The position numbers were made by a program, and so were the translations under genes. DNA of 37,804 nt from Alphaproteobacteria bacterium. Its GTDB lineage: Bacteria; Pseudomonadota; Alphaproteobacteria; Micropepsales; Micropepsaceae. Below, in pieces: positions 13,823 to 34,533 of the stretch. Numbering within the stretch: position 1 is the first letter of the stretch; every line of letters begins with the position of its first letter. The notes beneath the pieces are model-generated. The model was not told the origin of the DNA. It searched no databases and saw only the letters and a list, made by a program, of their open reading frames with translations. The stretch lies in NCBI GenBank assembly GCA_013140995.1, contig JABFRX010000125.1, positions 1 to 37,804 on the forward strand. The letters run 5' to 3'.

Positions 13823-15367
13823 TTAGAAGGTGAACATCATGCGGCCTTGGATGACATCGAAGTCCGCATCCAGGCTCACGCCCGCTGCATTCAGCCGCTC
13901 CACTTCGACCATGTTGTACTCGGCCATCATCTTCAGGTTCGCATTCATGTACCAAGTCGCGCCGACAATCACGTGGGTTTCTTCACCGCCGCGTATCCGG
14001 TTTGCAGCTACCGGAGCGAACTCAAACGCGTTCAGGTTCATGTTGCTGTAGCGCCCGTGGATCGACCACGCACCGATTCCGCCGCCCAGCGACCAAGGCG
14101 AGGCAATCGATGGGCCGCGCCATACGGCGATGTTGTTGTTGGTACCGGACGCCACATAGCGTTTGGCTTCGCCTGTGATGATCCATTCGGCTTCCGCGTA
14201 GAAGCCGTCGAACTCGGGGCTCGCTCCGGCAGCGGTCACACCGCCGACCAATCTGCGGTCGAGTTCGAATTTGTACCATTCACCCGCGAGGTAGAGGTTC
14301 TCCCAATTGAAGCCGACTTCGAAGCCATAGGCCCGTGCTGGGTCGTCCTGCTCAAGGCCCAAAGCGCCGGTGTCGATAAAGCGCTCGCCCGTCACGCGGA
14401 TTTCCGGCCGCTCGCGAAGTTGAAGCGTCCGCGCAGTGCCGGGTGTGTTGCCCTGCAGCGAGTTGATTTGCGCGTAGCTACCGCCGACCTGGAAGTTCGA
14501 CACACCGTCGGACCACAGACGATAAGCCAACCGGCCGAGGAACTGCGTGCGCTCGTCGTCCGGACCGCCGGAGTGGCTGGTACCGTTCGTGGCGACGCGG
14601 TCGCCAGTGAACGCGCCGGACGCCAGGAAGTTGTCGCCATCCCAGAGCAGACCTTCCTTCTGGTACGTGACTTCGACGGCCTTGCGGCCGTTGTCGCCGC
14701 CGAAATTGCCGACGAGCAAGGTCACGACCTGCGGACGTTCCATGGTGGTGAGTTCGGCCGACGAGGTCGAGTCGTACATTGTCAAAATCGGCTGGATCGC
14801 ACCGGCCTGAATGCGCAAGCCCGGGATGCCGACATAACCCACGCGGGCGATGTTGATGATGCCCGCACCTTCGATGTCCGTACCGCCGAAGTCGAAACGC
14901 AGTTCATAGATAAAGTCGCGGAAAAACTTACCTTCGATGCCGAACCGCACGCGGCGGAACACACCGCCCGAGCCAAGGTCGCAAAGCACGTTCGTCGCGT
15001 CGCAGTTGTTCGCCGCGCCGTAGCCCAAGCCGAAGTCGCTCGGATCTTGTTCGAACGCTGCGAAGTCGAGCTGCACGCGCCCGCGGAACGCCATCTCGAA
15101 GCGTCCGTCGCCAGAGCGCACGGAAGGCCGCCCGTCGTTGAACGACCACTGCACGGCGTCCTGCGTATCTTCGACCTTCTTCAGCCGCGAGCTCTGCTGA
15201 ATTTTGTCGTCTTCCGATTCACGCTCCAGACGCTCCAACCTCGCCTTGAGCTCTTGAATTTCTTGATCGCGCCGATCGTCCTTCGTAGACTTCCCGGCAT
15301 ACGCGGGCGATGCGACCAGCATCACCGCTGCGAGGGCCGCCGACCCCAGCCAAATTGATTTCCGCAT
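13823..15367 (-). CDS. Phosphate-selective porin, OprP/OprO family
   Basis: 514-residue outer-membrane beta-barrel. A signal peptide (MRKSIWLGSAALAAVMLVAS, cleaved after AYA) is followed by a coiled coil at about 30-70 (DQEIQELKARLERLERESED), as in OprP/OprO proteins. Then comes a 16-stranded-type barrel with FEMAFRGRVQLDFAAFE, the GGVFRRVRFGIEGKFFRDF motif and a C-terminal Phe (GRMMFTF). Homologues form channels selective for phosphate or pyrophosphate. Two starts are in frame, a GTG at 15376 and an ATG at 15367; the AAGGGG ribosome site is 10 bases from the ATG and too close to the GTG. A strong PHO box lies at 15414-15442, so induction by phosphate starvation through PhoB is likely. Confidence 0.9.
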   Translation of the reverse strand: MRKSIWLGSAALAAVMLVASPAYAGKSTKDDRRDQEIQELKARLERLERESEDDKIQQSSRLKKVEDTQDAVQWSFNDGRPSVRSGDGRFEMAFRGRVQLDFAAFEQDPSDFGLGYGAANNCDATNVLCDLGSGGVFRRVRFGIEGKFFRDFIYELRFDFGGTDIEGAGIINIARVGYVGIPGLRIQAGAIQPILTMYDSTSSAELTTMERPQVVTLLVGNFGGDNGRKAVEVTYQKEGLLWDGDNFLASGAFTGDRVATNGTSHSGGPDDERTQFLGRLAYRLWSDGVSNFQVGGSYAQINSLQGNTPGTARTLQLRERPEIRVTGERFIDTGALGLEQDDPARAYGFEVGFNWENLYLAGEWYKFELDRRLVGGVTAAGASPEFDGFYAEAEWIITGEAKRYVASGTNNNIAVWRGPSIASPWSLGGGIGAWSIHGRYSNMNLNAFEFAPVAANRIRGGEETHVIVGATWYMNANLKMMAEYNMVEVERLNAAGVSLDADFDVIQGRMMFTF

Positions 15368-15413: not shown

Positions 15414-15442
15414 GTGACACATCCATGACAGGCATATGACGT
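15414..15442 (-). promoter_or_regulatory. PHO box upstream of the porin
   Basis: On the minus strand three 7-bp half-sites, ACGTCAT, CTGTCAT and GTGTCAC, are separated by exactly 4 bp, giving the 11-bp period of PhoB-bound direct repeats (consensus CTGTCAT/C). The box ends 47 bases before the porin ATG. This is the best match of the four boxes in the window. PhoB is not encoded here. Confidence 0.8.
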
Positions 15443-17735: not shown

Positions 17736-19469
17736 TCAGAACTGTCCGGCGTCGTAGGTTTTCTTGAGCCGGTTGCGCACCTGTATCGCAAACGCATTCA
17801 AGAACAGCACGATGCCCACCAGCAGCAACGTCGTCACGAACACCATCGGCCGTCCGGCCTCGGAGTTCCGCGATTGAAAGCCGACGTCGTAGATGTGAAA
17901 ACCCAAATGCATAAAGCTGCGCTCGAAATGCACGAACGGCACCGTGAAGTCGATCGGCAGCTCCGGCGCCAACTTCACGACCCCCACGATCATCAACGGC
18001 GCCACTTCGCCAGCCCCCCGCGCCATCGCAAGGATGAGCCCCGTCATGATGCCGGGTGCCGCACGCGGTAGCACGATACGCCAGATCGTCTGCCACTTCG
18101 ACGCCCCGCAGGCGAGCGAGCCTTCCCGCATCGAACGCGGCACTGCGGCCAGCGCCTCTTCGGTCGCGACGATCACGACCGGTACGGTGAGCAAGGCCAG
18201 CGTCAGCGACGCCCACAACATGCCGCCAGTGCCGAACGTCGGTGTCGGCAGCTTTTCAGGAAAGAAAATCTGGTCGATCGACCCGCCCAAGATGTAACAG
18301 AAGAACCCAAGCCCGAAGACGCCGTAAACGATCGACGGCACGCCGGCGAGGTTGTTGACGCAAATGCGGATGAACGAGACCAGCGCCCCTTGCTTCGAAT
18401 ACTCGCGCAGGTAGAGCGCGGTAATCACGCCGAACGGCGCGACGGCGAGACTGAGCAGCACCATCATTGTCAGCGTGCCCACGATCGCGGGTAACACGCC
18501 GCCTTCGGTGTTCGCCTCGCGCGGTTGACCAGTGAGGAACTCCAGCCACCGTGAGGCATAGATCGACCACTTGTCCGCCAGCGACAAGTTGTTCGCCGGA
18601 AAGAGCCGCACGAGCTTCGACACCGGCAACGTCTTCGTCTGCTGGTCGATCGCTTCCAGCGTGACGGTGAAGTTTTCGTCTGTTTGCCGCAGTGCCGAGA
18701 TCTTCGTCTCAAGCGTTTTGTACTGCACTTCCAAGCGCGCGGTCTGCGCAGCGGCCTCAGCCGCAGCGGCTTTTGCCTCGCCGCTGCCTACGCCGTAATC
18801 GAGTTCGCTGCGCCTTACGCCCAGCCGAAGCGCCTCGATCTCGTGGTTGACCTCTGCGATCTCGACCTTGTCCAAACGCTCGATAGCGGCACGGCGGACG
18901 TCGGCCGTTGCAAGAGCTTCGGTCAGGGCAGGGTAGGTGGGCGCCGCAGTCCTTGTGCCGGCAAGGTTGATCTCCTTGATCCGGCCGATGAACGGGCCCC
19001 ATTCGCGCCGTTCGACCAGATACATGTCCTTCGCGAATTTAACCGCCTTCACGTCGAACGAAGGCACCCAGACGAAGTCTTCACCGAACAGGTCGTAGTT
19101 ACCGACACGGTAGAGCGTGCGCTCGGTTGCGCCGAAATTGGCGGTGATTTGTTCGCGGATCGCCTCGCTCTTGCCGGCAAGTTGCTCGGGCGAGGGCTTG
19201 TACGTTTCGCTCCGGAATTCCTCGCCGGCAAACACTTTGCCGTCGGTCATCTCCACGACGACGATCGGCGCCGGCCAAAACGTCACTGCGCCGACGTAGA
19301 TGATCAGCGCAAGGAACCCGATGATCATCGCAAGGCCGGCAACAAGCGACGCACCCATGACCCAAACGAACGGTTCGCCCATCGCGCTCAAATCGCTGCG
19401 CGGACTGCGGCGCACGGTCGAGAGCTGGGTGACAGGTGAGGTGGCGGCTGTGGTAACTGTGTCGCTCAT
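17736..19469 (-). CDS. pstA: Phosphate ABC transporter permease PstA (long form)
   Basis: 577-residue inner-membrane permease. A first helix at about 37-63 ([20 protein letters not shown]) is followed by a periplasmic domain of nearly 270 residues with a coiled-coil part ([19 protein letters not shown] and [20 protein letters not shown]). This is the DUF3333-type N-terminal extension known from proteobacterial long PstA proteins. The permease core starts near 325 and contains the ATPase-contact loop [20 protein letters not shown]. pstC ends 10 bases upstream. The long form is not rare (Pseudomonas has one), but what the extension binds is unknown. Confidence 0.93.
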
Positions 19470-19479
19470 AAAGTCCGCC

Positions 19480-22128
19480 TCACAACTGCGCCGCGCGCTT
19501 GCGGTATCGCTGACGTACGATTTCAGCGACTGTGTTTATGACGAACGTCACGCCGAAGAGCACCAGCGCGCACAGGAAGAGCGTCCGGTAAAGCGTGGAG
19601 TCGCGAACCGCTTCGGGCAGCTCCACGTTGATGTTGGCCGAAAGTGTGCGCAGGCCGTTGAAGATATTGACGTCCAGGATCGGTGTGTTACCCGTGGCCA
19701 TGACAACGATCATCGTCTCGCCGACCGCGCGGCCGAGCCCGATCATGATCGCCGAGAAAATCCCCGACGCCGCTGTCGGGACAACGATCCAGAGCGCCGT
19801 CTGCCATCGCGATGCTCCGCAGGCGAGCGAACCCGAACGCAAGTACGCGGGCACGGCGTTCAGGGCGTCTTCCGAGATCGAGTAGATCAGCGGGATCTGC
19901 GTGAAAGCGAGCGCGAAAGCGACGACCAGCGCGTTGCGCTGTACAAACGTGTCGATCACCCCACCGCGCGCGTCGTAACCCAGAGATTGAAGCATCAGCG
20001 CACCGCCCCAAGCGAGGCCGAACGACAGCGCTAGAATAAGAAGCCAGCTTAAGAGTTCGCTAGTCCCGGCCACAAACTTCGATTGCTCCCGAAGGCGCAG
20101 CCGGTAGGCGCCGTTGAACAGCGGTCGCGTCGCGAGCAGCACAGTGGCGAACGATATCGGCGTCAAGAGCAGAAACAAAAACGGTTGGCCCGAGCCGGCG
20201 CCCGACGTCCACTTCTTGAAGTCGCCGCCGAAGAAAGCGACTTCGATAAGCGGCCCGAGCCGGACGCTGAGCCACACCGCCGCCGCGACGGCTAGGAAGT
20301 AGGCGACGAGCTTTGGGAACCCATCGAGCACATTCGCCACGGGCTGCGGCAAGAGCTGCCACAAGAACGAGACCGAAATGACGGTTAGCGGCAAGACGCC
20401 GAAAGCGATGACGATCGCGGCGATCCAATTTTCGACAATTGGCGACAGCACGAGCGCGGCGATGAAGCCCACTACGACGGATGGGAGCGACGCCATTAAC
20501 TCCATCGTCGGTTTGACGATGCCGCGTGTACGCGGGTGCAAAAATTCCGACGTATAGATCGCGCCAAAGAGCGCAAGCGGGATCGCAAGCATCAGCGAAT
20601 AGATTGCCGCCTTGAACGTACCGAAGATCAAGGGAATGAGCGATAGCTTCGGCTCGGGCGAGTCGGTCCCCGCCGTCGACTGCCAGACGTAGTTTGGCTC
20701 GCCGTAACCCTCGTACCAAACCTTGCCGAACAGCGACTGCAGCGTCGTCTCGGGGTGCGGGACCGAGATACCCCAAAGGATCGCCTGGCCGTTCTTGCCG
20801 ATGCCGAGGATCGCGTCGTCTTTCGGCGCGAAAACGACGGCCTGAAGCCCGTTCGCGTCGGGCGTGCCGGGAAGCCTCAGCAACGTACGGTCTGTGGTTC
20901 CGTGATGAAGCCAAATGCCGCCAGTAGCGTCCGCCGTCGCGAACAACCGGGTACGCTGGCTGACGCGGATTGCTTCGATAGCGGCCGGCTGCTTGGCGAA
21001 GTCCGCGTGCACCTTTGTCAGCACGATCCCGTCGGCGGTCAAAGGCGATTTCTTATAGACGCCGAACCAGATCGCGAGCGAGCCGTCAGACCCGCCCACC
21101 ACGATCGAACTTTCGCCGTTCAGATACGCGATCGCCGACAGCGTCACGCCGTCAGGCACGACCTTCACCGTTTCAACGAGCTTTGGATTTGCGAAGTCAC
21201 GCGTGAGGTAACGCATCACCGTCCCGTCGGCGAGCGCGATCAGCACACGGTCGCCTTGCGTATTGAGCAGAAGCGCGCGCACATCCTGCGGCGACCGGCC
21301 GAGCGGTATCGTCGCACTTGAGACGTGCGTCGTGGCCTCGCCCGTCATCATGTTGAGTTCTGTCGAGGCCTGACTAAGCCGCAGCGTCCCGGCCGCATCC
21401 AGCGTCACAAAGGTGCGTAGTGGCCGTTCCGCTGTTCCGCCGGCGCGATAGTCGGCATTGACGATCGACGTCCCGGCATCGGCGATCTGGATCGGAGCGA
21501 GGAGGGACAGCTCGACAGACGTGCGGCGGAACTGGCCCGGGATGCGGGTGTAAATCGCGTTACCGTCGGTCAGGTCGCGCGCGTCGAGTTTACGCAGTCC
21601 TTGTGGCAACGCTTGCGCCCCAATGACAGACGCCTTCAAGTCGAACCTGCCCGCGCGCACGGAGCCGTCGGCAAACGCGAACAAGATGTCGTCGCCCTTA
21701 AGCGTGCTTGCGAACGCTGTCGCTGTGAGACCGCCGAGATCGAAGCTAGCCGTTTCGAGAGGCGTTCCGGTGGAAGCGTGAAAAGCCGTTACGTGACCGT
21801 CTGCTTGCACGTCGGCCACGATCGTTTGCTGATCGTCCATTTGCGTCGCGACAAACGGCTTGCCGCTCGCGCCGAAGGAAAGCGCACGCGTTCCTGTCAC
21901 GCCCCCGGTCTCGAGCAGCGGCAAGGATACATAAATCAGGAAGACCATGATCGTGAAGACTGCAGCGATCACCGCAAGGCCGCCGACGCGGATACCGATG
22001 CGCGCGAACGCGTCGGCGAAGAGCACCGACGTCTTTGTCTTTTTGTCGCGCTGGTAAAGGACGGAGGCCGGCCGCCTACCTTCCTTCGGTTCTGATCCCG
22101 GCATTGCGTTGTCCGCCACAGCCCTCAT
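19480..22128 (-). CDS. pstC: Phosphate ABC transporter permease PstC (long form with periplasmic propeller-like domain)
   Basis: 882-residue permease, much longer than E. coli PstC (about 320). A first helix at about 47-70 is followed by some 420 residues that look periplasmic. They are strand-rich repeats (DDILFAFADGSVRAGRF, DRVLIALADGTVMRYL, SSIVVGGSDGSLAIWFGVY, DAILGIGKNGQAILWGI), a WD40/beta-propeller-like pattern. The permease core begins near 515 and carries the contact loop SEDALNAVPAYLRSGSLACGA and GLGRAVGETMIVVMATG. Long PstC proteins of this sort occur in other proteobacteria. The start could be 22128 or the ATG at 22104. Two hairpins in the 102-bp gap after pstS may lower expression relative to pstS. 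Confidence 0.93.
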   Translation of the reverse strand: MRAVADNAMPGSEPKEGRRPASVLYQRDKKTKTSVLFADAFARIGIRVGGLAVIAAVFTIMVFLIYVSLPLLETGGVTGTRALSFGASGKPFVATQMDDQQTIVADVQADGHVTAFHASTGTPLETASFDLGGLTATAFASTLKGDDILFAFADGSVRAGRFDLKASVIGAQALPQGLRKLDARDLTDGNAIYTRIPGQFRRTSVELSLLAPIQIADAGTSIVNADYRAGGTAERPLRTFVTLDAAGTLRLSQASTELNMMTGEATTHVSSATIPLGRSPQDVRALLLNTQGDRVLIALADGTVMRYLTRDFANPKLVETVKVVPDGVTLSAIAYLNGESSIVVGGSDGSLAIWFGVYKKSPLTADGIVLTKVHADFAKQPAAIEAIRVSQRTRLFATADATGGIWLHHGTTDRTLLRLPGTPDANGLQAVVFAPKDDAILGIGKNGQAILWGISVPHPETTLQSLFGKVWYEGYGEPNYVWQSTAGTDSPEPKLSLIPLIFGTFKAAIYSLMLAIPLALFGAIYTSEFLHPRTRGIVKPTMELMASLPSVVVGFIAALVLSPIVENWIAAIVIAFGVLPLTVISVSFLWQLLPQPVANVLDGFPKLVAYFLAVAAAVWLSVRLGPLIEVAFFGGDFKKWTSGAGSGQPFLFLLLTPISFATVLLATRPLFNGAYRLRLREQSKFVAGTSELLSWLLILALSFGLAWGGALMLQSLGYDARGGVIDTFVQRNALVVAFALAFTQIPLIYSISEDALNAVPAYLRSGSLACGASRWQTALWIVVPTAASGIFSAIMIGLGRAVGETMIVVMATGNTPILDVNIFNGLRTLSANINVELPEAVRDSTLYRTLFLCALVLFGVTFVINTVAEIVRQRYRKRAAQL

Positions 22129-25329: not shown

Positions 25330-27888
25330 TTAGAATTTTGCCTTGAGTTGCACCTGGAACGCTTGCGGCGAGCCCACCTGATAGCGAACCGTCGAGCCTG
25401 CGCGCAGGCTGACAGCGGCCGTCGGGTCAATGTCCACCGGTTCCGCGTTCAGTGTGCTGGAGATGTTGCCCAGCCACTCTTCGTCGAACAGGTTCGACGC
25501 GTTGAACTGCAGGATCACATTCTCCAAACCAAGCGCGGTGAAGTCGTAGGCGATGTCGGCGTCGAACAACGTGTAGGACGGGGAGACCTGGTCGTTCATG
25601 TCGGTTGAAAAGCGGTCGCCAACATATTTGCCCTGGAAGCCGAGGACTAAGCCTTCAACCGGCGCGTACTGAATGCGACCGCCGAACGTCCAGTCGGGCG
25701 TCTCGACCAGCGCTTTTCCCTTGGTCGGGAAGTAGAGCGTTCCACCAAGATTGGCCGCTTGGTTGTTTCGCAGTTCTGAGTCGATATATGAGGCCGAAAC
25801 GTAGAGGCCCAGTTCGCTCACCGGCCGCCAGCCGATTTCCGCGTCGACGCCTTGCAGGATCACTTTGCCCACGTTGCGATCGACGTTCGTGCCGCTCACC
25901 GGATCAAATGACGTCACGATGCGGTTCTGGAACTCATTGTACCACAAGGCGGCGGATGCGGTGACGGTCTCACCCTGGATGCGATAGCCCACGTCATAGG
26001 CCTTGGTCTTTTCGGGCTGAACGCCCGGCAGTGTGACGGTGTCAATGCCGGCGGTTTCCACGCCCGGCGTCGCCGGAGCGCAAGTTTCGCAAATCACGAA
26101 GTAGAGGTTGTCAGTTCGTGGTGCGGATAGCCCTTCGGCGAAGCTTGCGTAGATGATGTTCCCCTCGAACACTTCGAAGCTGACCCCAACGTTCGGCAGA
26201 ACCGCATCGTACTCGAACGTGGCGTCGAAGGGTCTGGCGTAGTTCGTCGCCCCGCCACCGGCAAGCGTGCCGATCCCGTCGCCGTCGGCGTCGGTGAACG
26301 GTTCGGTGGAGCAGCGCACGTTGCTGGAAGCCAATTGCGTGAAGCAGAGCTGGTTCAATTCGCGCTTGAAGAACGGCGCCCGCAAGCCAACGTCCACCAG
26401 CAAGCGGTCTTCGAAGAACCGTCCGGTATAGCTTGCCGAAAACTGATCTAGGATGGCATTGGAGATACGATCGCGACCCCGCAGGAAGCTGCCGTCCGTT
26501 CCGAACACGCGCGCGTTCGAATGATCGAGACCGCCGAAGATGTCCACGGGATCGCCGTTGGCGAGCAGCTTGCTGAACGCACCCGTTTGGCGATGACGCC
26601 CGTAGTCCTTGGTGTAGGCGACGCGAACGTTGCTGCTTTCGTCGATGTCGTAAATCAGCGACGTGGTCAGTCCGTAGCGGCTGGTGTTGGTATTGTTCGG
26701 CGTGTAGAGGCGCACAGTGTCAAGCGTGTCGCCGTCGCCGCTCAAGTCGACGCCACCACCGCCCGGCGCAAGCCTGCGATCGGTTTCACTGACCGTGTTC
26801 GTTCCGCCGCCGTTCGCTTTGACATATTGCCAGGTGGGGTCGACCGTCAGGCGAAAGTTGTCGGAGAGCTGAAAACTGCCTTGAGCACGGATGTTGCCCG
26901 TGTTCGAGGGATTGATACGCAGATTGTAGAAGTTCGTGCAGCTTGATGGGTTGGCGAGATTGTTGGTGTCAGCGCCGCTACCGTCGCTTTGCGCACCGGC
27001 GCCGAACGTGGCGCGGGTACAGGTCGCGAAATTGTCAAAGCCGGTGCCGAACGTGGGGATATCGCCCGGCAGCGACGGCAATAAGCCGTTCGCGTTCAAA
27101 AGGCTCAGCGTGCGGTAGAAGTTATTCCGGTTTTCGTTGTAGTGGCCGATGACGCTGATGAAGCTATCCTCGCCGATCTTCTGGTAGATACGAGCGTTGC
27201 CCTGTTGCTTTTGCAGTTCGCCCGGACCCTTGAACTTATCGTATTGCTGGAACGAGTAGCCCGCGAAGGAACTGACGCCCCGGTACTCGCCAAGGTCGAT
27301 GATCGCGGCGATACGCCGATAGTCGAACGAGCCGGCGGAGCCGGTTGCCGTTAGCGTAAAGTCTTCGTAGGGTTTGCGCGTTACGAGGTTGATCGTGCCG
27401 CCGACCGCTGAGGCTGTAGGGCTGTCGACGTCCGTCGTTCCTGTGTTCACCGTCGCGCGCGACAGGTACTCGGGATCCACCATCTGGTTCGTGAAGATGG
27501 CGTAGTTGCCGGTATCGTTGAGCGGCGTACCGTCAACCGTGAGCGACACGCGATTGCCGTCAAAGCCGCGAACGCGCACGTTGCCGCCGCTCGATCCGTA
27601 AGGATCGGAGTTCGTGAAGTTCACGCCGGGCGCCAAGTTCAGGCTTTGAAACACGGTTTGGCCACCGGGCTGTGTTTTCAGGTAATCTTGGGTGACCGTC
27701 GAACGGGTTTTTGGGCGCTGCTCCTTGACGATTTGGCCATTGGTGCCTTTGCGCTCACCCGTGACCGTAACCTTCTCGACCTTTTCGACCTCTTGTGTGC
27801 CGGTCGACTGTGCATATGCAGGTGCCGTTAGCGCCAGAAGCGCCAAGGTCGACACAGAACACGCAAACATACCCCTCAAGAAACGCAT
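25330..27888 (-). CDS. TonB-dependent outer-membrane receptor
   Basis: 852-residue receptor. Signal peptide MRFLRGMFACSVSTLALLAL, cleaved after AYA. The TonB box region is probably EKVEKVTVTGERK (about 34-46). The plug contains VFQSLNLAPGVNF, GGNVRVRGFDGNRVSLTVDG and VGGTINLVTRKPYED. The rest is a 22-stranded-type barrel ending in a terminal Phe (QVQLKAKF), with aspartate-rich loops such as DADGDGIG. The imported substrate is unknown. Its promoter region carries a PHO box (27977-28005) and it is divergent from phoD, so uptake of a phosphorylated or phosphate-bearing compound is a reasonable inference. A terminator-like hairpin lies in the leader. The ATG at 27888 has a GGGGG site just upstream. 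Confidence 0.92.
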   Translation of the reverse strand: MRFLRGMFACSVSTLALLALTAPAYAQSTGTQEVEKVEKVTVTGERKGTNGQIVKEQRPKTRSTVTQDYLKTQPGGQTVFQSLNLAPGVNFTNSDPYGSSGGNVRVRGFDGNRVSLTVDGTPLNDTGNYAIFTNQMVDPEYLSRATVNTGTTDVDSPTASAVGGTINLVTRKPYEDFTLTATGSAGSFDYRRIAAIIDLGEYRGVSSFAGYSFQQYDKFKGPGELQKQQGNARIYQKIGEDSFISVIGHYNENRNNFYRTLSLLNANGLLPSLPGDIPTFGTGFDNFATCTRATFGAGAQSDGSGADTNNLANPSSCTNFYNLRINPSNTGNIRAQGSFQLSDNFRLTVDPTWQYVKANGGGTNTVSETDRRLAPGGGGVDLSGDGDTLDTVRLYTPNNTNTSRYGLTTSLIYDIDESSNVRVAYTKDYGRHRQTGAFSKLLANGDPVDIFGGLDHSNARVFGTDGSFLRGRDRISNAILDQFSASYTGRFFEDRLLVDVGLRAPFFKRELNQLCFTQLASSNVRCSTEPFTDADGDGIGTLAGGGATNYARPFDATFEYDAVLPNVGVSFEVFEGNIIYASFAEGLSAPRTDNLYFVICETCAPATPGVETAGIDTVTLPGVQPEKTKAYDVGYRIQGETVTASAALWYNEFQNRIVTSFDPVSGTNVDRNVGKVILQGVDAEIGWRPVSELGLYVSASYIDSELRNNQAANLGGTLYFPTKGKALVETPDWTFGGRIQYAPVEGLVLGFQGKYVGDRFSTDMNDQVSPSYTLFDADIAYDFTALGLENVILQFNASNLFDEEWLGNISSTLNAEPVDIDPTAAVSLRAGSTVRYQVGSPQAFQVQLKAKF

Positions 27889-27910: not shown

Positions 27911-27937
27911 AAAAAAACAACCGGACGGAACGTCCGG
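27911..27937 (-). terminator. Terminator-shaped hairpin in the 5' leader of the TonB receptor
   Basis: On the minus strand CCGGACG (27937-27931), loop TTC, CGTCCGG (27927-27921), then TTGTTTTTTT. This is a textbook intrinsic terminator for leftward transcription. It stands between the PHO box (27977-28005) and the receptor ATG at 27888. A transcript from the predicted start would therefore meet it after some 20 bases of leader. It may be an attenuator, or end a tiny leader RNA. Confidence 0.7.
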
Positions 27938-27976
27938 CCCCCGTGGAAGACAAAGCGCGATGGAGATTTAACTTCC

Positions 27977-28005
27977 GCGACTGTTACGTGACGCATGCGT
28001 GACGA
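27977..28005 (-). promoter_or_regulatory. PHO box upstream of the TonB receptor
   Basis: On the minus strand half-sites TCGTCAC, GCGTCAC and CAGTCGC are spaced by 4 bp (11-bp period). They are followed by TTAAAT (27971-27966), a plausible -10. The orientation fits the receptor and not the divergent phoD gene. I see no equally good box facing phoD in the 275-bp gap. Confidence 0.65.
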
Positions 28006-28163: not shown

Positions 28164-29744
28164 ATGACAGACGCATTTCGTTCGAGCCGCCGCGACTTGT
28201 TGCGGCGTGCGGGTGCACTCGCCGCGCTTTCGATCGCTGGCGCTACCGTTCGCGCAAGCCAAGGGTTCGCGGCGGCGCGGCCGAAGTTCGGCAGCTATCC
28301 GTTTTCGCTCGGTGTCGCATCGGGCGATCCGGTGGGCGACGGCTTCGTCATTTGGACACGGCTTGCGCCCGATCCTTTTGACCGGTTGTCGGTTGGCGAG
28401 GAAATCGTGCCCGTCATCTGGGAGGTGGCGAGCGATGCACGAATGCAGAAAATCGTGCGGCGCGGCACAAAGCTTGCGACACGCGACCTCGCACACGCAG
28501 TGCATGTAGAGGTGCGCGGTCTACCGCCTGGGCGGCCCTATTGGTATCGGTTCCGGGTTGCCGGATCGGACGCGAGCGCGATCGGCCAAGCGTGGACGGC
28601 GCCGGAGCTCGGCGCGCCACTCGACCGGTTTCGCTTCGCCGTCGCCTCGTGCCAGCACTTCGAGCAAGGCTACTTCACGGCGTACGACTATATGGTCAAG
28701 GATGCGCCGCAGCTGATCCTGCATCTGGGCGACTACATCTACGAATCCTCATGGGGCGATCCCGTGCGGCGGCACGACGGCCCCGAGCCCGTTACGCTTG
28801 ACGAATATCGAGACCGGCATGCGCTCTACAAGACAGACGCCGCACTGCAACGCGCGCACGCGCATTGTCCTTGGCTCGTCACGTGGGACGATCACGAAGT
28901 GGACAACGACTATCAGGCGCTCGAGTCGGAGGATTGGCAGGCACCGGCGGCGTTCGTGAAGCGCCGCGCCGCGGCGTTTCAGGCGTACTATGAGCACATG
29001 CCGCTGCGCCGGATTGCAGTGCCGCGCGTAGAGGAGATGCGGCTCTATCAGCGCTCGGTGTTCGGCGACCTCGTCAACATCGCGATGCTCGACAATCGCC
29101 AGTATCGTTCGCCCGCGGCGTGCCGGTCGAAAGAGGACGGTGGCGGACAAGTTGTGACGGCGGCATGCAAGGAGTTGTTCGAAAGCGGGCGCACGATGCT
29201 CGGCGACGAACAGGAACGTTGGCTGACCGGCGGCTTCGCGCGCTCGAAGGCGATTTGGAACGTTATCGGTAATGGCGAGATGTTCTCACGGCTGCATCAG
29301 AAGACGTCCCAGGGTGAAGAAGGCTGGTGGACCGACGATTGGAACGGATTCCCAAGCGCTCGCGAGCGCGTGATCACCGCACTCGCACGCTCAAAGATGC
29401 CCAACCCTGTGTTCGTGACCGGCGACATCCACTCGTTCTGGGTCAACGACGTGAAGGAGGATTTTCGCAATCCGTCTTCGCCTTCAGTGGCGACGGAACT
29501 TGTTGGAACCTCGATCACCTCAGCGGGCGTTCCTTATGATCAGTTTGCTGCGCTCCTACCCGGCAATCCGCACGTAAAGTTCTTCGAAAGCCGCAAACGC
29601 GGCTATCTTCTGTGTGACGCCAGCCGCAAGACGATGACCACCGACCTTCGTATCGTGGAAAACGTTCGCGACCCCAAGACGCCCGACGGCTCCGCCGGCC
29701 GGTTCGCTATCGAAGCGGGCCGCCCGGGCGCGGTCGTGGCCTAG
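28164..29744 (+). CDS. phoD: Tat-exported alkaline phosphatase D (PhoD family)
   Basis: 526-residue phosphatase/phosphodiesterase. A twin-arginine signal is plain (SSRRDLLRRAGALAALSIAG, cleavage near AAA), as required for PhoD, which folds with its iron and calcium cofactor before export. The N-terminal beta-domain (FSLGVASGDPVGDGFVIWTR) precedes the catalytic metallophosphoesterase domain with FRFAVASCQHFEQGYFTAYD, LHLGDYIYES, TWDDHEVDNDY and VTGDIHSFWVND. It releases phosphate from extracellular phosphoesters. The gene is divergent from the TonB receptor. A Pho role is inferred from family and neighbours; no clear PHO box faces it. Confidence 0.95.
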   Translation: MTDAFRSSRRDLLRRAGALAALSIAGATVRASQGFAAARPKFGSYPFSLGVASGDPVGDGFVIWTRLAPDPFDRLSVGEEIVPVIWEVASDARMQKIVRRGTKLATRDLAHAVHVEVRGLPPGRPYWYRFRVAGSDASAIGQAWTAPELGAPLDRFRFAVASCQHFEQGYFTAYDYMVKDAPQLILHLGDYIYESSWGDPVRRHDGPEPVTLDEYRDRHALYKTDAALQRAHAHCPWLVTWDDHEVDNDYQALESEDWQAPAAFVKRRAAAFQAYYEHMPLRRIAVPRVEEMRLYQRSVFGDLVNIAMLDNRQYRSPAACRSKEDGGGQVVTAACKELFESGRTMLGDEQERWLTGGFARSKAIWNVIGNGEMFSRLHQKTSQGEEGWWTDDWNGFPSARERVITALARSKMPNPVFVTGDIHSFWVNDVKEDFRNPSSPSVATELVGTSITSAGVPYDQFAALLPGNPHVKFFESRKRGYLLCDASRKTMTTDLRIVENVRDPKTPDGSAGRFAIEAGRPGAVVA

Positions 29745-30271: not shown

Positions 30272-30589
30272 TCAGTTGTTGAGCGTAGTCGACGCGACGT
30301 AGTGCTTGGCAATCGCCTGCAGCGCAGCGACTTCGTTCGGAAACACTTTATCGAGCTTCACGAAGTCGCTCATCCGCCCGCGGCGCACGGAACGCAAGAT
30401 CGACGCTTCGACACCGCCGTCGGCACGCTTGATCATGCCGGCATCGCGCCATTCGTCATCTGCGACGAAGCCCTCGTCCGTGCGGTGGGCGAGGTGGGTC
30501 TTCACGGGGGCTTTGTCGCCGAACGCGGCGTTGTCGAGCGCGAACTCGCGGAATGTGCCGTTGCCTTCGTCTTTCGAGCAGATGATCAT
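30272..30589 (-). CDS. Small protein downstream of nrdJ, unrecognised
   Basis: 105-residue soluble protein from the ATG at 30589 (MIICSKDEGNGTFREFALDN); an in-frame ATG at 30643 would add 18 residues but overlaps an inverted repeat. It is rich in charged residues and ends with a helix (FPNEVAALQAIAKHYVAST). The pattern looks like coding sequence and lies 84 bases after the nrdJ stop on the same strand, so co-transcription is possible. I do not recognise the family. Confidence 0.6.
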   Translation of the reverse strand: MIICSKDEGNGTFREFALDNAAFGDKAPVKTHLAHRTDEGFVADDEWRDAGMIKRADGGVEASILRSVRRGRMSDFVKLDKVFPNEVAALQAIAKHYVASTTLNN

Positions 30590-30631
30590 GTGTTCTCGGC
30601 TTCCTAGTTTTCTTGTTCTTCCCACCAGCTC

Positions 30632-30650
30632 GCGGGAGTTCATCTCCCGC
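30632..30650 (-). terminator. Inverted repeat after nrdJ
   Basis: Perfect 7-bp stem GCGGGAG/CTCCCGC with a 5-nt loop, 24 bases past the nrdJ stop and before the next gene. There is no T-run, so it may be an RNA-stabilising hairpin or a weak terminator. Confidence 0.4.
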
Positions 30651-30673
30651 TGAGCCCATCCTTGGCTTGAGGC

Positions 30674-33600
30674 TCAGCTGCAGCCGGTCGTCGTTCCGCA
30701 GCTGTCGCACTTCAAGCACGTGCCGTTGCGCACCAGCGTGAAGTTCCCGCAGTTCCCGCACGCATCGCCCTCGTAGCCCTTGATGCGGGCTTCGGCCATC
30801 TTGCGCGCACGCAAGTGAGCGGTCGAAACCGTCACCTCGCGCTCCACGATCTCAATCTGTTGCGCGACCGGGTTGGCGAGAGCGCGGCGTGCCTGCGCGT
30901 CCAGCGCAAGTTCGCTCGCCGTCGCCAGCATCATCTGCGCCGGATCGAGCTTCACGGCGGCGCCACCTTCGACGACCATGAGCTGTTGCGGCATCTGACC
31001 GCGCACGAGACCGGCCGACACGATCCGCGCGGTGTTCTGCGCCGGTGTTGCAGGACGCTTGCCTTCGCTGTCGCCGCCGCCGATCTCGCTGTCGCCGGGA
31101 ATGACGTGCGCCAAGTCGTGACGGCCGAGATACGACACCGCCAGTTCACGGAACACGTAGTCCAGGATCGACGTTGCGTTCTTGATCGCCTCGTTGCCCG
31201 TCACCATACCGGCCGGTTCGAAGCGCGTGAATGTGAACGCTTCCACGAACTCGTCCAGCGGCACGCCGTATTGTAGCCCAATCGAAATCGCGATCGCGAA
31301 ATTGTTCATCAAGCTGCGGAAGGCAGCGCCCTCCTTGTGCATGTCGATGAAGATCTCGCCGATCCGGCCGTCGTCGTACTCACCGGTGCGCAGGTAAACC
31401 TTGTGCCCGCCGACGGTCGCCTTTTGCGTATAGCCCTTGCGGCGATGCGGCAGCTTCTCGCGGTCGCGCTTCGTGATTTCGATCACACGCTCGACGACGC
31501 GTTCGGCCAGCGCTTGCGCGCGTGCGCCTTGCGCCATTTCGGGCAACGCGTCGACGAGGTCGTCCTCCTCATCGTCGGTCGCCAACAGCGAGGACGCGAG
31601 CGGCTGCGAGAGTTTCGACCCGTCGCGATAGAGCGCGTTCGCTTTCAACGCCAGCTTCCACGACTTCATGTAGGCGTCGGCGCAATCCTTCACCGTCGCC
31701 GCCATCGGCATGTTGATCGTCTTCGAGATCGCGCCCGAAATGAACGGCTGTGCCGCCGCCAGCATCAAGATGTGGCTGTCGACCGACAACGCGCGTTTGC
31801 CGAGCTTGCCGCACGGGTTTGCGCAATCGAACACCGCCAGATGCTCGTCCTTCAGGTGCGGCGCACCCTCCAGCGTCATCGCCCCGCAGCAATAGAGGTT
31901 CGCCGAGTCGACTTCGGCCTTCGTGAAGCCGATCTCGAGCAGCAGGTTGAAGTCCGGCGCATCCAAACGCTCCGGCGCGAGGTTCAGCGTCTTCCTGCAG
32001 AACTCTTCGCCCAGTGTCCAACGGTTGAACACGAACGAGATGTCGAACGCAGTCGCTAGCGATGCCTCGACCGCCTCGAGCTCCTTGTCCGTGAACCCCT
32101 TCAGCTTCAGCCACTCGTGGTTCACGCCAGGCGCGCCTTTCAACGTGCCGCGGCCGACCGCGTAGTTGATGATCGCGTCCGTCTGCTCCGGCCGGTAGCC
32201 CAGCACGCGCAACGCCTCCGGCACCGACTGGTTGATGATCTTAAAGTAACCGCCGCCGGCCAGCTTCTTGAACTTAACCAGCGCGAAGTCGGGCTCGATG
32301 CCCGTCGTGTCGCAATCCATCACGAGGCCGATCGTGCCGGTCGGCGCGATCACCGTCGTCTGCGCATTGCGATAGCCGTAGAGAGCGCCTTGCGCCAACG
32401 CCTCGTCCCACGATCCGCGTGCGCGGTCGATAAGTCCCTCATAGCCGGTCGCCGGCATCTCGATCGCGTTCAGCGGCACGGGCTTGATCGACAGCTTCTC
32501 ATAGCCGTCGACCGCGCCATGTGCCGCGCGGCGATGATTGCGGATCACGCGCAGCATCTGGTCCGCGTTTTTGGCGTAGCCTTTGAACGCGCCAAGCTCG
32601 CGCGCCATCGCAGCCGACGTGGCGTAGGAAGCGCCCGTCATCAGCGCCGCCAAGGCACCCGCAACTGCGCGGCCTTGCTGCGAGTCGTAGGAAATGCCTG
32701 ACGTCATGAGCAGGCCGCCGATATTGGCGTAGCCGAGGCCAAGCGTGCGGTACTCGTAGGACAGCTGCGCAATTTCCTTCGACGGGAACTGCGCCATCAT
32801 CACCGAGATTTCGAGCACGATCGTCCAAAGCCGGACCGCATGCTCATAGGCCGCTACGTCGAACACCTTGCGCCCGTCAGGACCATCCTTGCGGAACGCC
32901 ATCAGGTTCAGCGAGGCGAGGTTGCACGCCGTATCGTCGAGAAACATGTACTCCGAGCAAGGGTTTGACGCGCGAATCTGGCCGGAGTTCGGGCAGGTGT
33001 GCCAATCGTTGATCGTCGTGTGGAACTGCAAGCCGGGGTCCGCGCACTGCCACGCGGCTTCGGAGATTTTGCCCCACAGGTCGCGCGCCTTCACGGTCTT
33101 GTGCGTTTTGCCGTCGATGCGGCGTGCCAGCTGCCAGTCCGCGTCTTGTTCGACCGCACGCAAGAAATCGTCCGTCACGCGCACGGTGTTGTTCGAGTTC
33201 TGGCCGGAGACAGTGTAGTAGGCCTCACCGTCCCAATCCGTGTCCAGGACCGGAATGTCGATCGATGTGTAGCCCTGGCGCGCGAACTGAACCGCACGCT
33301 GAACCGCGTTGTCCGGAATCTGCACCTTGCGGGCGGCTTTGATTTCGCGCTTCAAGGCCGGGTTCTGCAGCGGATCGAAGCAAGCATCGCCGTCCGCCGA
33401 GCAATTCACGCACGCCTTGATGATCAAGTTCAGGTGCTTATTGAGCAGGCGCGAACCAGCGACGAGAGCTGCCACCTTCTGCTCTTCCAGAACCTTCCAA
33501 TCGATGAAGGCTTCGATGTCCGGGTGGTCGGCGTCAACGATGACCATCTTCGCTGCGCGCCGCGTCGTGCCGCCCGACTTGATCGCGCCGGCCGCACGGT

Positions 33601-34384
33601 CGCCGATCTTAAGGAAGCTCATCAAGCCCGATGACTTGCCGCCGCCCGACAGCTTTTCGTTCACGCCGCGCAGAGCGGAGAAGTTCGAACCCGTGCCCGA
33701 GCCGTATTTGAACAAACGCGCCTCACGAACCCAAAGGTCCATGATCCCGCCTTCGTTCACGAGATCGTCCTTGATCCCTTGAATGAAGCACGCGTGCGGC
33801 TGCGGATGCTCGTATGAGCTGGCCGAAGCCGTGAGCTCGCCGGTCCAGTGATCGACATAGTGGTGGCCTTGAGCAGGACCATCGATGCCGTAGGCCCAAT
33901 GCAGGCCGGTGTTAAACCACTGTGGGCTGTTCGGCGCCGCCATCTGCGCGGCCAGCATGTAACGCATCTCGTCGAAGAACGCGCGGGCATCGCTCTCTTC
34001 GTCGAAATAGCCGCCCTTCCAACCCCAATAGGTCCACGTGCCGGCGAGACGGTCGAACACCTGACGTGCGCTCGACTCGCCGACGGCCTTCGGTTCGTCC
34101 TTCAGCTTCTTCAGCGCCGCCTCGTCCGGCGCCATGCGCCACAACCATTCCGGCACCTTGTCCTCTGCAACAGGCTTCAGCTTTGCCGCGATACCCGCTT
34201 TACGAAAATACTTCTGCGCCAGCACGTCGGACGCAACTTGGCTCCAACGCTCCGGCACTTCGATGTTCTCTTGGCGGAAGACGACCGAACCGTCCGGATT
34301 GCGGATCTCGCTCGCTGTCGTGCGGAACGAAATGCTCTGGTAAGCCGATTGTCCGTCAACGGTGAAGACGCGGTCGATGCGCAT
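30674..34384 (-). CDS. nrdJ: Adenosylcobalamin-dependent ribonucleotide reductase, class II
   Basis: 1236-residue NrdJ, which reduces ribonucleotides to deoxyribonucleotides using a cobalamin-generated radical, with or without oxygen. The N-terminus ([20 protein letters not shown]) is typical of the alphaproteobacterial group. Further landmarks are [38 protein letters not shown] (active-site cysteine region), the [20 protein letters not shown] block and a C-terminal zinc ribbon with CGNCGNF and CLKCDSCG. The ATG at 34384 follows a GAGGGG site and gives the normal start. No B12 riboswitch is visible upstream; instead there are three NrdR-box-like elements at 34534-34613. The lineage therefore depends on cobalamin for at least this reductase. 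Confidence 0.97.
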
Positions 34385-34533
34385 GCGTGAAGCCCCTCTT
34401 GAGTGCCCTTGGGTGACGACTGTTCCCTGAGGGCCGTGATGGGTTCGGAGCTTCTTGGGACCTACATCCGCGCGCTTCACCAAAGTCCCCCGCGCGGGTC
34501 AGTCCCTGGTGCCCAAAAATCTTGGCTAACAGG

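Follow-up and report, generated by a model that had tools for sequence, protein, structure and literature searches.

A possible leaky intrinsic terminator in the short leader of a TonB-dependent receptor gene divergent from phoD

Results

The receptor-phoD locus and its candidate Pho promoter

The window, which is the whole stretch of 37,804 nucleotides that was analysed, carries a TonB-dependent receptor gene with its ATG at 27888 and, divergently transcribed from 28164, a phoD alkaline phosphatase gene, leaving a gap of 275 bp between the two (Table 1). Both the plug and the barrel domains were present in the receptor, and the match of phoD to NF058638 was under the cut-off of that model. 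The window also encodes PstS, Pst permease-type proteins and an ABC ATPase in the same cluster, as well as an OprO/P-type porin. Together with phoD, the pst genes and the porin mark this region as a Pho island.

Two of the Pst permease-like proteins, of 882 aa (19483-22128, reverse strand) and 548 aa (17736-19382, reverse strand), far exceed the ~300-aa PstC and PstA models, and the 882-aa protein has a long N-terminal extension. Tandem PHO-type repeats (TGTCAT/TGTCAC) were found at 15415-15441 on the reverse strand, ahead of the porin gene (13823-15322), and this site is clearer than the repeats in the receptor leader.

In the receptor leader, three 11-nt PHO-type repeats are followed immediately by TTAAAT. 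Counted as a pattern, the PHO repeats were not above chance when taken alone, and their assignment depends on their position, the neighbouring genes and a register that is kept in G005, one of the relatives described below. A Pho promoter ahead of the receptor is plausible, supported by the divergent phoD, the Pho island and the repeats in register in G005. TonB-dependent receptors controlled by PhoB have been reported in Caulobacter crescentus (PMC11208175). From the position of TTAAAT we infer a transcription start near 27961-27958, so that an RNA terminated at the T-run would be approximately 44-51 nt long.

Table 1. Features of the receptor leader and the genes flanking it
Feature	Position	Strand	Basis
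Three PHO-type repeats in direct orientation, 11 nt each: CGTCACGCATG-CGTCACGTAAC-AGTCGCGGAAG	28004-27972	-	sequence; G005 alignment
-10-like TTAAAT, adjoining the third PHO repeat	27971-27966	-	sequence
Leader segment GCTTTGTCTTCCACGGGG	27956-27939	-	15/18 identity to G005, aligned place
Hairpin core stem CCGGACG-TTC-CGTCCGG, 7 bp, G+C-rich, triloop TTC	27937-27921	-	sequence
Extended stem GGCCGGACG-TTC-CGTCCGGTT, 9 bp (7 Watson-Crick and 2 outer G-U)	27939-27919	-	
T-run TTGTTTTTTT, predicted RNA 3' end	27920-27911	-	sequence; missing in G005
Weak 5-bp hairpin ATCGC-GGGG-GCGAT, loop is the G-rich Shine-Dalgarno-like segment	27902-27889	-	folding
TonB-dependent receptor, 852 aa, N-terminal signal peptide	25330-27888	-	PF00593 8.6e-36, PF07715 1.5e-14
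Divergent phoD alkaline phosphatase	28164-29744	+	PF09423 5.5e-106, PF16655

Between the -10-like element and the ATG, a G+C-rich hairpin is followed directly on its 3' side by a T-run, which is the sequence signature of an intrinsic terminator. Its sequence and its leftward orientation, between the PHO box and the receptor start, are as the preliminary description had given them. The weak hairpin in the Shine-Dalgarno region was not seen in the G005 sequence.

The preliminary description had also allowed that the hairpin ends another leftward transcript. Such a terminator would stop RNA antisense to phoD, or read-through, and shield the receptor gene, and leftward genes do lie beyond phoD (30272-34483). 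A terminator with a shielding role, however, should lie upstream of the promoter, because between promoter and gene it also stops the transcripts of the gene itself; no separate leftward gene was found within the 275-bp gap, and phoD is more than 1.5 kb long. We consider this explanation rather improbable.

Terminator signals in the genome background

A loose scan for terminators found 20 sites compared with 19.7 in shuffled sequences, with the leader site at the top of the list. As the loose scan was close to the shuffles, a stricter search was made with 1,076,230 bases, about 27% of the genome, as background. A custom gene caller applied to this 1.08 Mb gave 959 genes at a coding density of 0.857; it put the receptor start at 27855, which is 33 nt downstream of the true start at 27888, and the class of the site is unaffected by this.

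The strict search gave 34 candidates, 20 of which lie at most 150 nt behind a gene in the sense direction, 7 within genes, 3 in leaders only and 4 elsewhere. One of the other leader-only candidates (L127:5837) was rejected as a second case, since it actually lies behind rpmA, which had been overlooked by the ORF caller, and another was discounted for a score below zero. Thus, among the candidates from the strict search of 1.08 Mb, only the site ahead of the receptor is a credible case in which the leader belongs to a divergently transcribed gene. With 20 of 34 candidates behind sense genes, and one more behind rpmA, this class of signal mostly represents real termination in this organism.

In the receptor leader, 9 of the first 10 tail bases are T, which makes this T-run the richest among the 34. 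Among intergenic stems of 7 bp or more, a tail of 9 or more T in 10 was observed twice in the 1.08 Mb against 0.0 in shuffled sequences, and a tail of 8 or more T in 10 was observed 11 times against 0.1. These counts bear on whether a palindrome and a homopolymer run simply came to lie side by side by chance. The outcome of the loose scan would fit with chance adjacency, as would the lack of conservation in related species, but under the strict criteria there were 11 intergenic sites compared with 0.1 or fewer in the shuffles, which gave no tail of 9 T or more, making it quite improbable.

The strength of the signal is more modest. The 7-bp core stem has a folding energy of -10.6 kcal/mol, or approximately -13 to -15 kcal/mol with the outer pairs included, and is both shorter and weaker than the terminators at 3' ends in the same genome, which have 8-12 bp and roughly -14 to -27 kcal/mol. 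By a d'Aubenton-Carafa-type score, the leader site was positive in all registers tried (23.5, 20.3 and 9.5) and ranked 23rd of 34; some candidates within genes scored similarly or above it (38.5 and 20.5). The score lends no support to an earlier expectation that most transcripts would end at the hairpin. I read the hairpin and its T-run, from their sequence, as a probably real yet leaky terminator.

Searches for an attenuation switch and a downstream start

Attenuation had been suggested in the preliminary description, together with an alternative antiterminator pairing, and neither was borne out. No fold of similar strength was found in the leader, the best one without the terminator helix having -8.4 kcal/mol compared with -15.8 kcal/mol. 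Rfam gave no match in the window at gathering scores, and inspection of the ~20 nt before the hairpin revealed no credible short ORF with a start and a ribosome site that could encode a leader peptide. The leader is too short to accommodate an aptamer or a leader peptide and its alternative fold is weak, so a classical switch is unlikely. The T-run is also not kept in G005 and G010, which makes a conserved attenuation switch unlikely. Constant partial termination is the simplest reading of the leader, and what remains is either a terminator that is leaky and specific to the lineage, or else an RNA by-product.

The leader could also be divided differently, with the Pho promoter serving a separate tiny RNA that ends at the T-run and the receptor being transcribed from a start further downstream, for example from TCTAAT at 27911-27906. 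This hexamer agrees with TATAAT at 5 of 6 positions, the layout of the product would be that of a small RNA derived from a 5' UTR, and the genome encodes Hfq. There is, however, no suitably spaced -35-like element and no sigma-70 type match at TCTAAT, a downstream start would leave a leader of only ~15 nt, and G005, having no T-run, would not make such an RNA. A separate tiny RNA of this kind is therefore improbable.

Conservation of the leader in relatives

An orthologue search in ten other genomes of the genus identified two with a close orthologue of the receptor, at 70 and 66% identity. These genomes, G005 and G010, both keep the divergent phoD, and no other relative searched shares this gene pair. 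A contig scan gave two relatives, the G005 contig CADEFU010000014.1 and a fragment without a readable leader. In G001, which carries a phoD of 65% identity (L138, 3000-4000), the divergent neighbour looks like a different gene and not the TonB receptor described here, so within the genus phoD does not always have this receptor as its partner.

Whether homologous receptors keep the hairpin, a point raised beforehand, has a divided answer. In the alignment of the leader in the window with that of G005, the PHO repeats are in the same register, and in the corresponding position G005 has a 9-bp hairpin with a triloop, standing 22 nt ahead of the ATG. Precisely where the T-run lies, the alignment opens a gap of nine columns, and the stem in G005 is followed by AAAAAA. 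G010 has a longer leader and a different hairpin, and the T-run is missing there too. Promoter, leader and terminator are therefore not conserved as a unit. Among twelve more distant homologues, the 220 nt before the start contained no hairpin with a comparable T-run; several of them have other hairpins 16-46 nt from the start, none with a T-run. Several receptor homologues (among L015-L018, L023 and L026) carry strong palindromic GGCCGG...CCGGCC hairpins right after their stop codon, which are probably their own terminators.

The 15/18 match of GCTTTGTCTTCCACGGGG to G005 was also reached in shuffled sequence over all offsets, so this segment gives positional support only. In a covariation test on the alignment of the window and G005, the column-by-column pairing of the hairpin was no better than in shuffles. 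Since neither the pairing nor matches of 15 in 18 bases exceeded the shuffles, equivalence of the two hairpins is likely but not proven. A hairpin of at least 9 bp occurs in the last 70 nt of only 12 of 467 leaders of the same genome, and this rarity favours a shared leader hairpin. As the G005 hairpin has no tail, the T-run appears to be a later addition in this lineage, and the hairpin probably predates it.

The strongest rival explanation builds on the same observations. The hairpin could be mainly a structural 5' stem-loop, affecting mRNA stability or ribosome access, with the T-run being incidental and causing little termination. The G005 hairpin with AAAAAA in place of T, the scarcity of such hairpins in leaders and the tailless hairpins of the distant homologues are consistent with this. 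Against it, no other candidate in the 1.08 Mb has so rich a T-run, common descent with the G005 hairpin is unproven as the pairing is no better than in shuffles, and the hairpin of G010 is different in a longer leader. A purely structural role is unlikely on balance, although it deserves to be taken seriously.

No copies of the receptor leader were found elsewhere in the genome except weak, short matches, and other receptor genes in the same genome (7 places) showed no comparable leader terminator where the start could be read.

Discussion

The sequence, the genome background and the gene context all support a terminator-like element that separates the receptor gene from a plausible Pho promoter; the meanings first proposed for it are more tentative. 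At a probability of about 0.5, and hence only marginally favoured over all alternatives together, we suggest that it is a leaky, lineage-specific intrinsic terminator within the short 5' UTR of a PhoB-driven receptor mRNA. The weak stem, the rank of 23rd of 34, the missing tail in G005 and G010 and a PHO repeat that is not above chance on its own all count against a leaky terminator.

If it does act as one, RNA polymerase would start at the Pho promoter near 27960 and make ~20 nt before reaching the hairpin. The hairpin of 7-9 bp would then form and, at the T-run, a fraction of the complexes would stop at 27918-27911. The stopped complexes would release an RNA of ~45-50 nt, and the remainder would read through into the receptor gene. 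Receptor output would then probably be damped to a constant degree. The leader terminator may also be modulated in trans, by either an sRNA or a protein, but none of the present observations suggests this.

Terminators in 5' UTRs and the small RNAs released from them are of an already known kind, of which the receptor leader is a plausible instance. UpsM of Rhodobacter sphaeroides is a 5'-UTR-derived sRNA ahead of the dcw cluster (PMC5089854). It likewise comes from an alphaproteobacterial leader with a Rho-independent terminator, where polymerases that stop yield a small RNA and those that read through yield the mRNA; the UpsM leader, however, is 268 nt long and kept across the Rhodobacteraceae, whereas the receptor leader is ~70 nt, has its T-run in one species and gives a predicted RNA (PMC5089854). 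In E. coli, the premature 3' ends that Term-seq revealed in 5' UTRs also reflect early termination in leaders, some of it leading to stable small RNAs, but those ends were experimentally mapped and many are Rho-dependent, whereas the receptor leader is known from its sequence alone (PMC7815308). In the metZ SAM-II leader of Sinorhizobium meliloti, an intrinsic terminator also lies between promoter and gene, and the receptor leader differs from this riboswitch and attenuator arrangement in having no aptamer, leader peptide or alternative antiterminator fold (PMC9373788). A narrow literature search found no published report of premature termination combined with TonB receptors.

The released RNA, of ~48 nt and induced by PhoB, could conceivably have a function of its own. 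The G-rich CACGGGGGCC segment in the leader resembles the ribosome site of the receptor, and it might sequester Sis/alpha-r8-type sRNAs directed against Shine-Dalgarno sites. A single phosphate-starvation promoter would then have two outputs, one by termination and one by read-through; we regard this as very improbable. The alpha-r8/SisA sRNA core has been reported for Caulobacter (PMC12559287). Elsewhere in the genome, the L155 locus (G000:C21:9442-9451) contains TTTCCTCCCT, which is the alpha-r8/SisA core, and within ~20 nt after it a GGGCCGC...GCGGCCC hairpin followed by TCTTTTATT; this locus is a candidate Sis-type anti-ribosome-site sRNA.

Across the genus, receptor control is not expected to rely strongly on termination, and the consequence of a leaky terminator would be confined to this lineage, as a local and modest regulatory feature and not a new mechanism. 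If the terminator is real, the output of a Pho-activated receptor would be limited by early termination just behind its promoter. It would also hint at a way in which such a brake can emerge, namely through the addition of a T-run onto a pre-existing leader hairpin.
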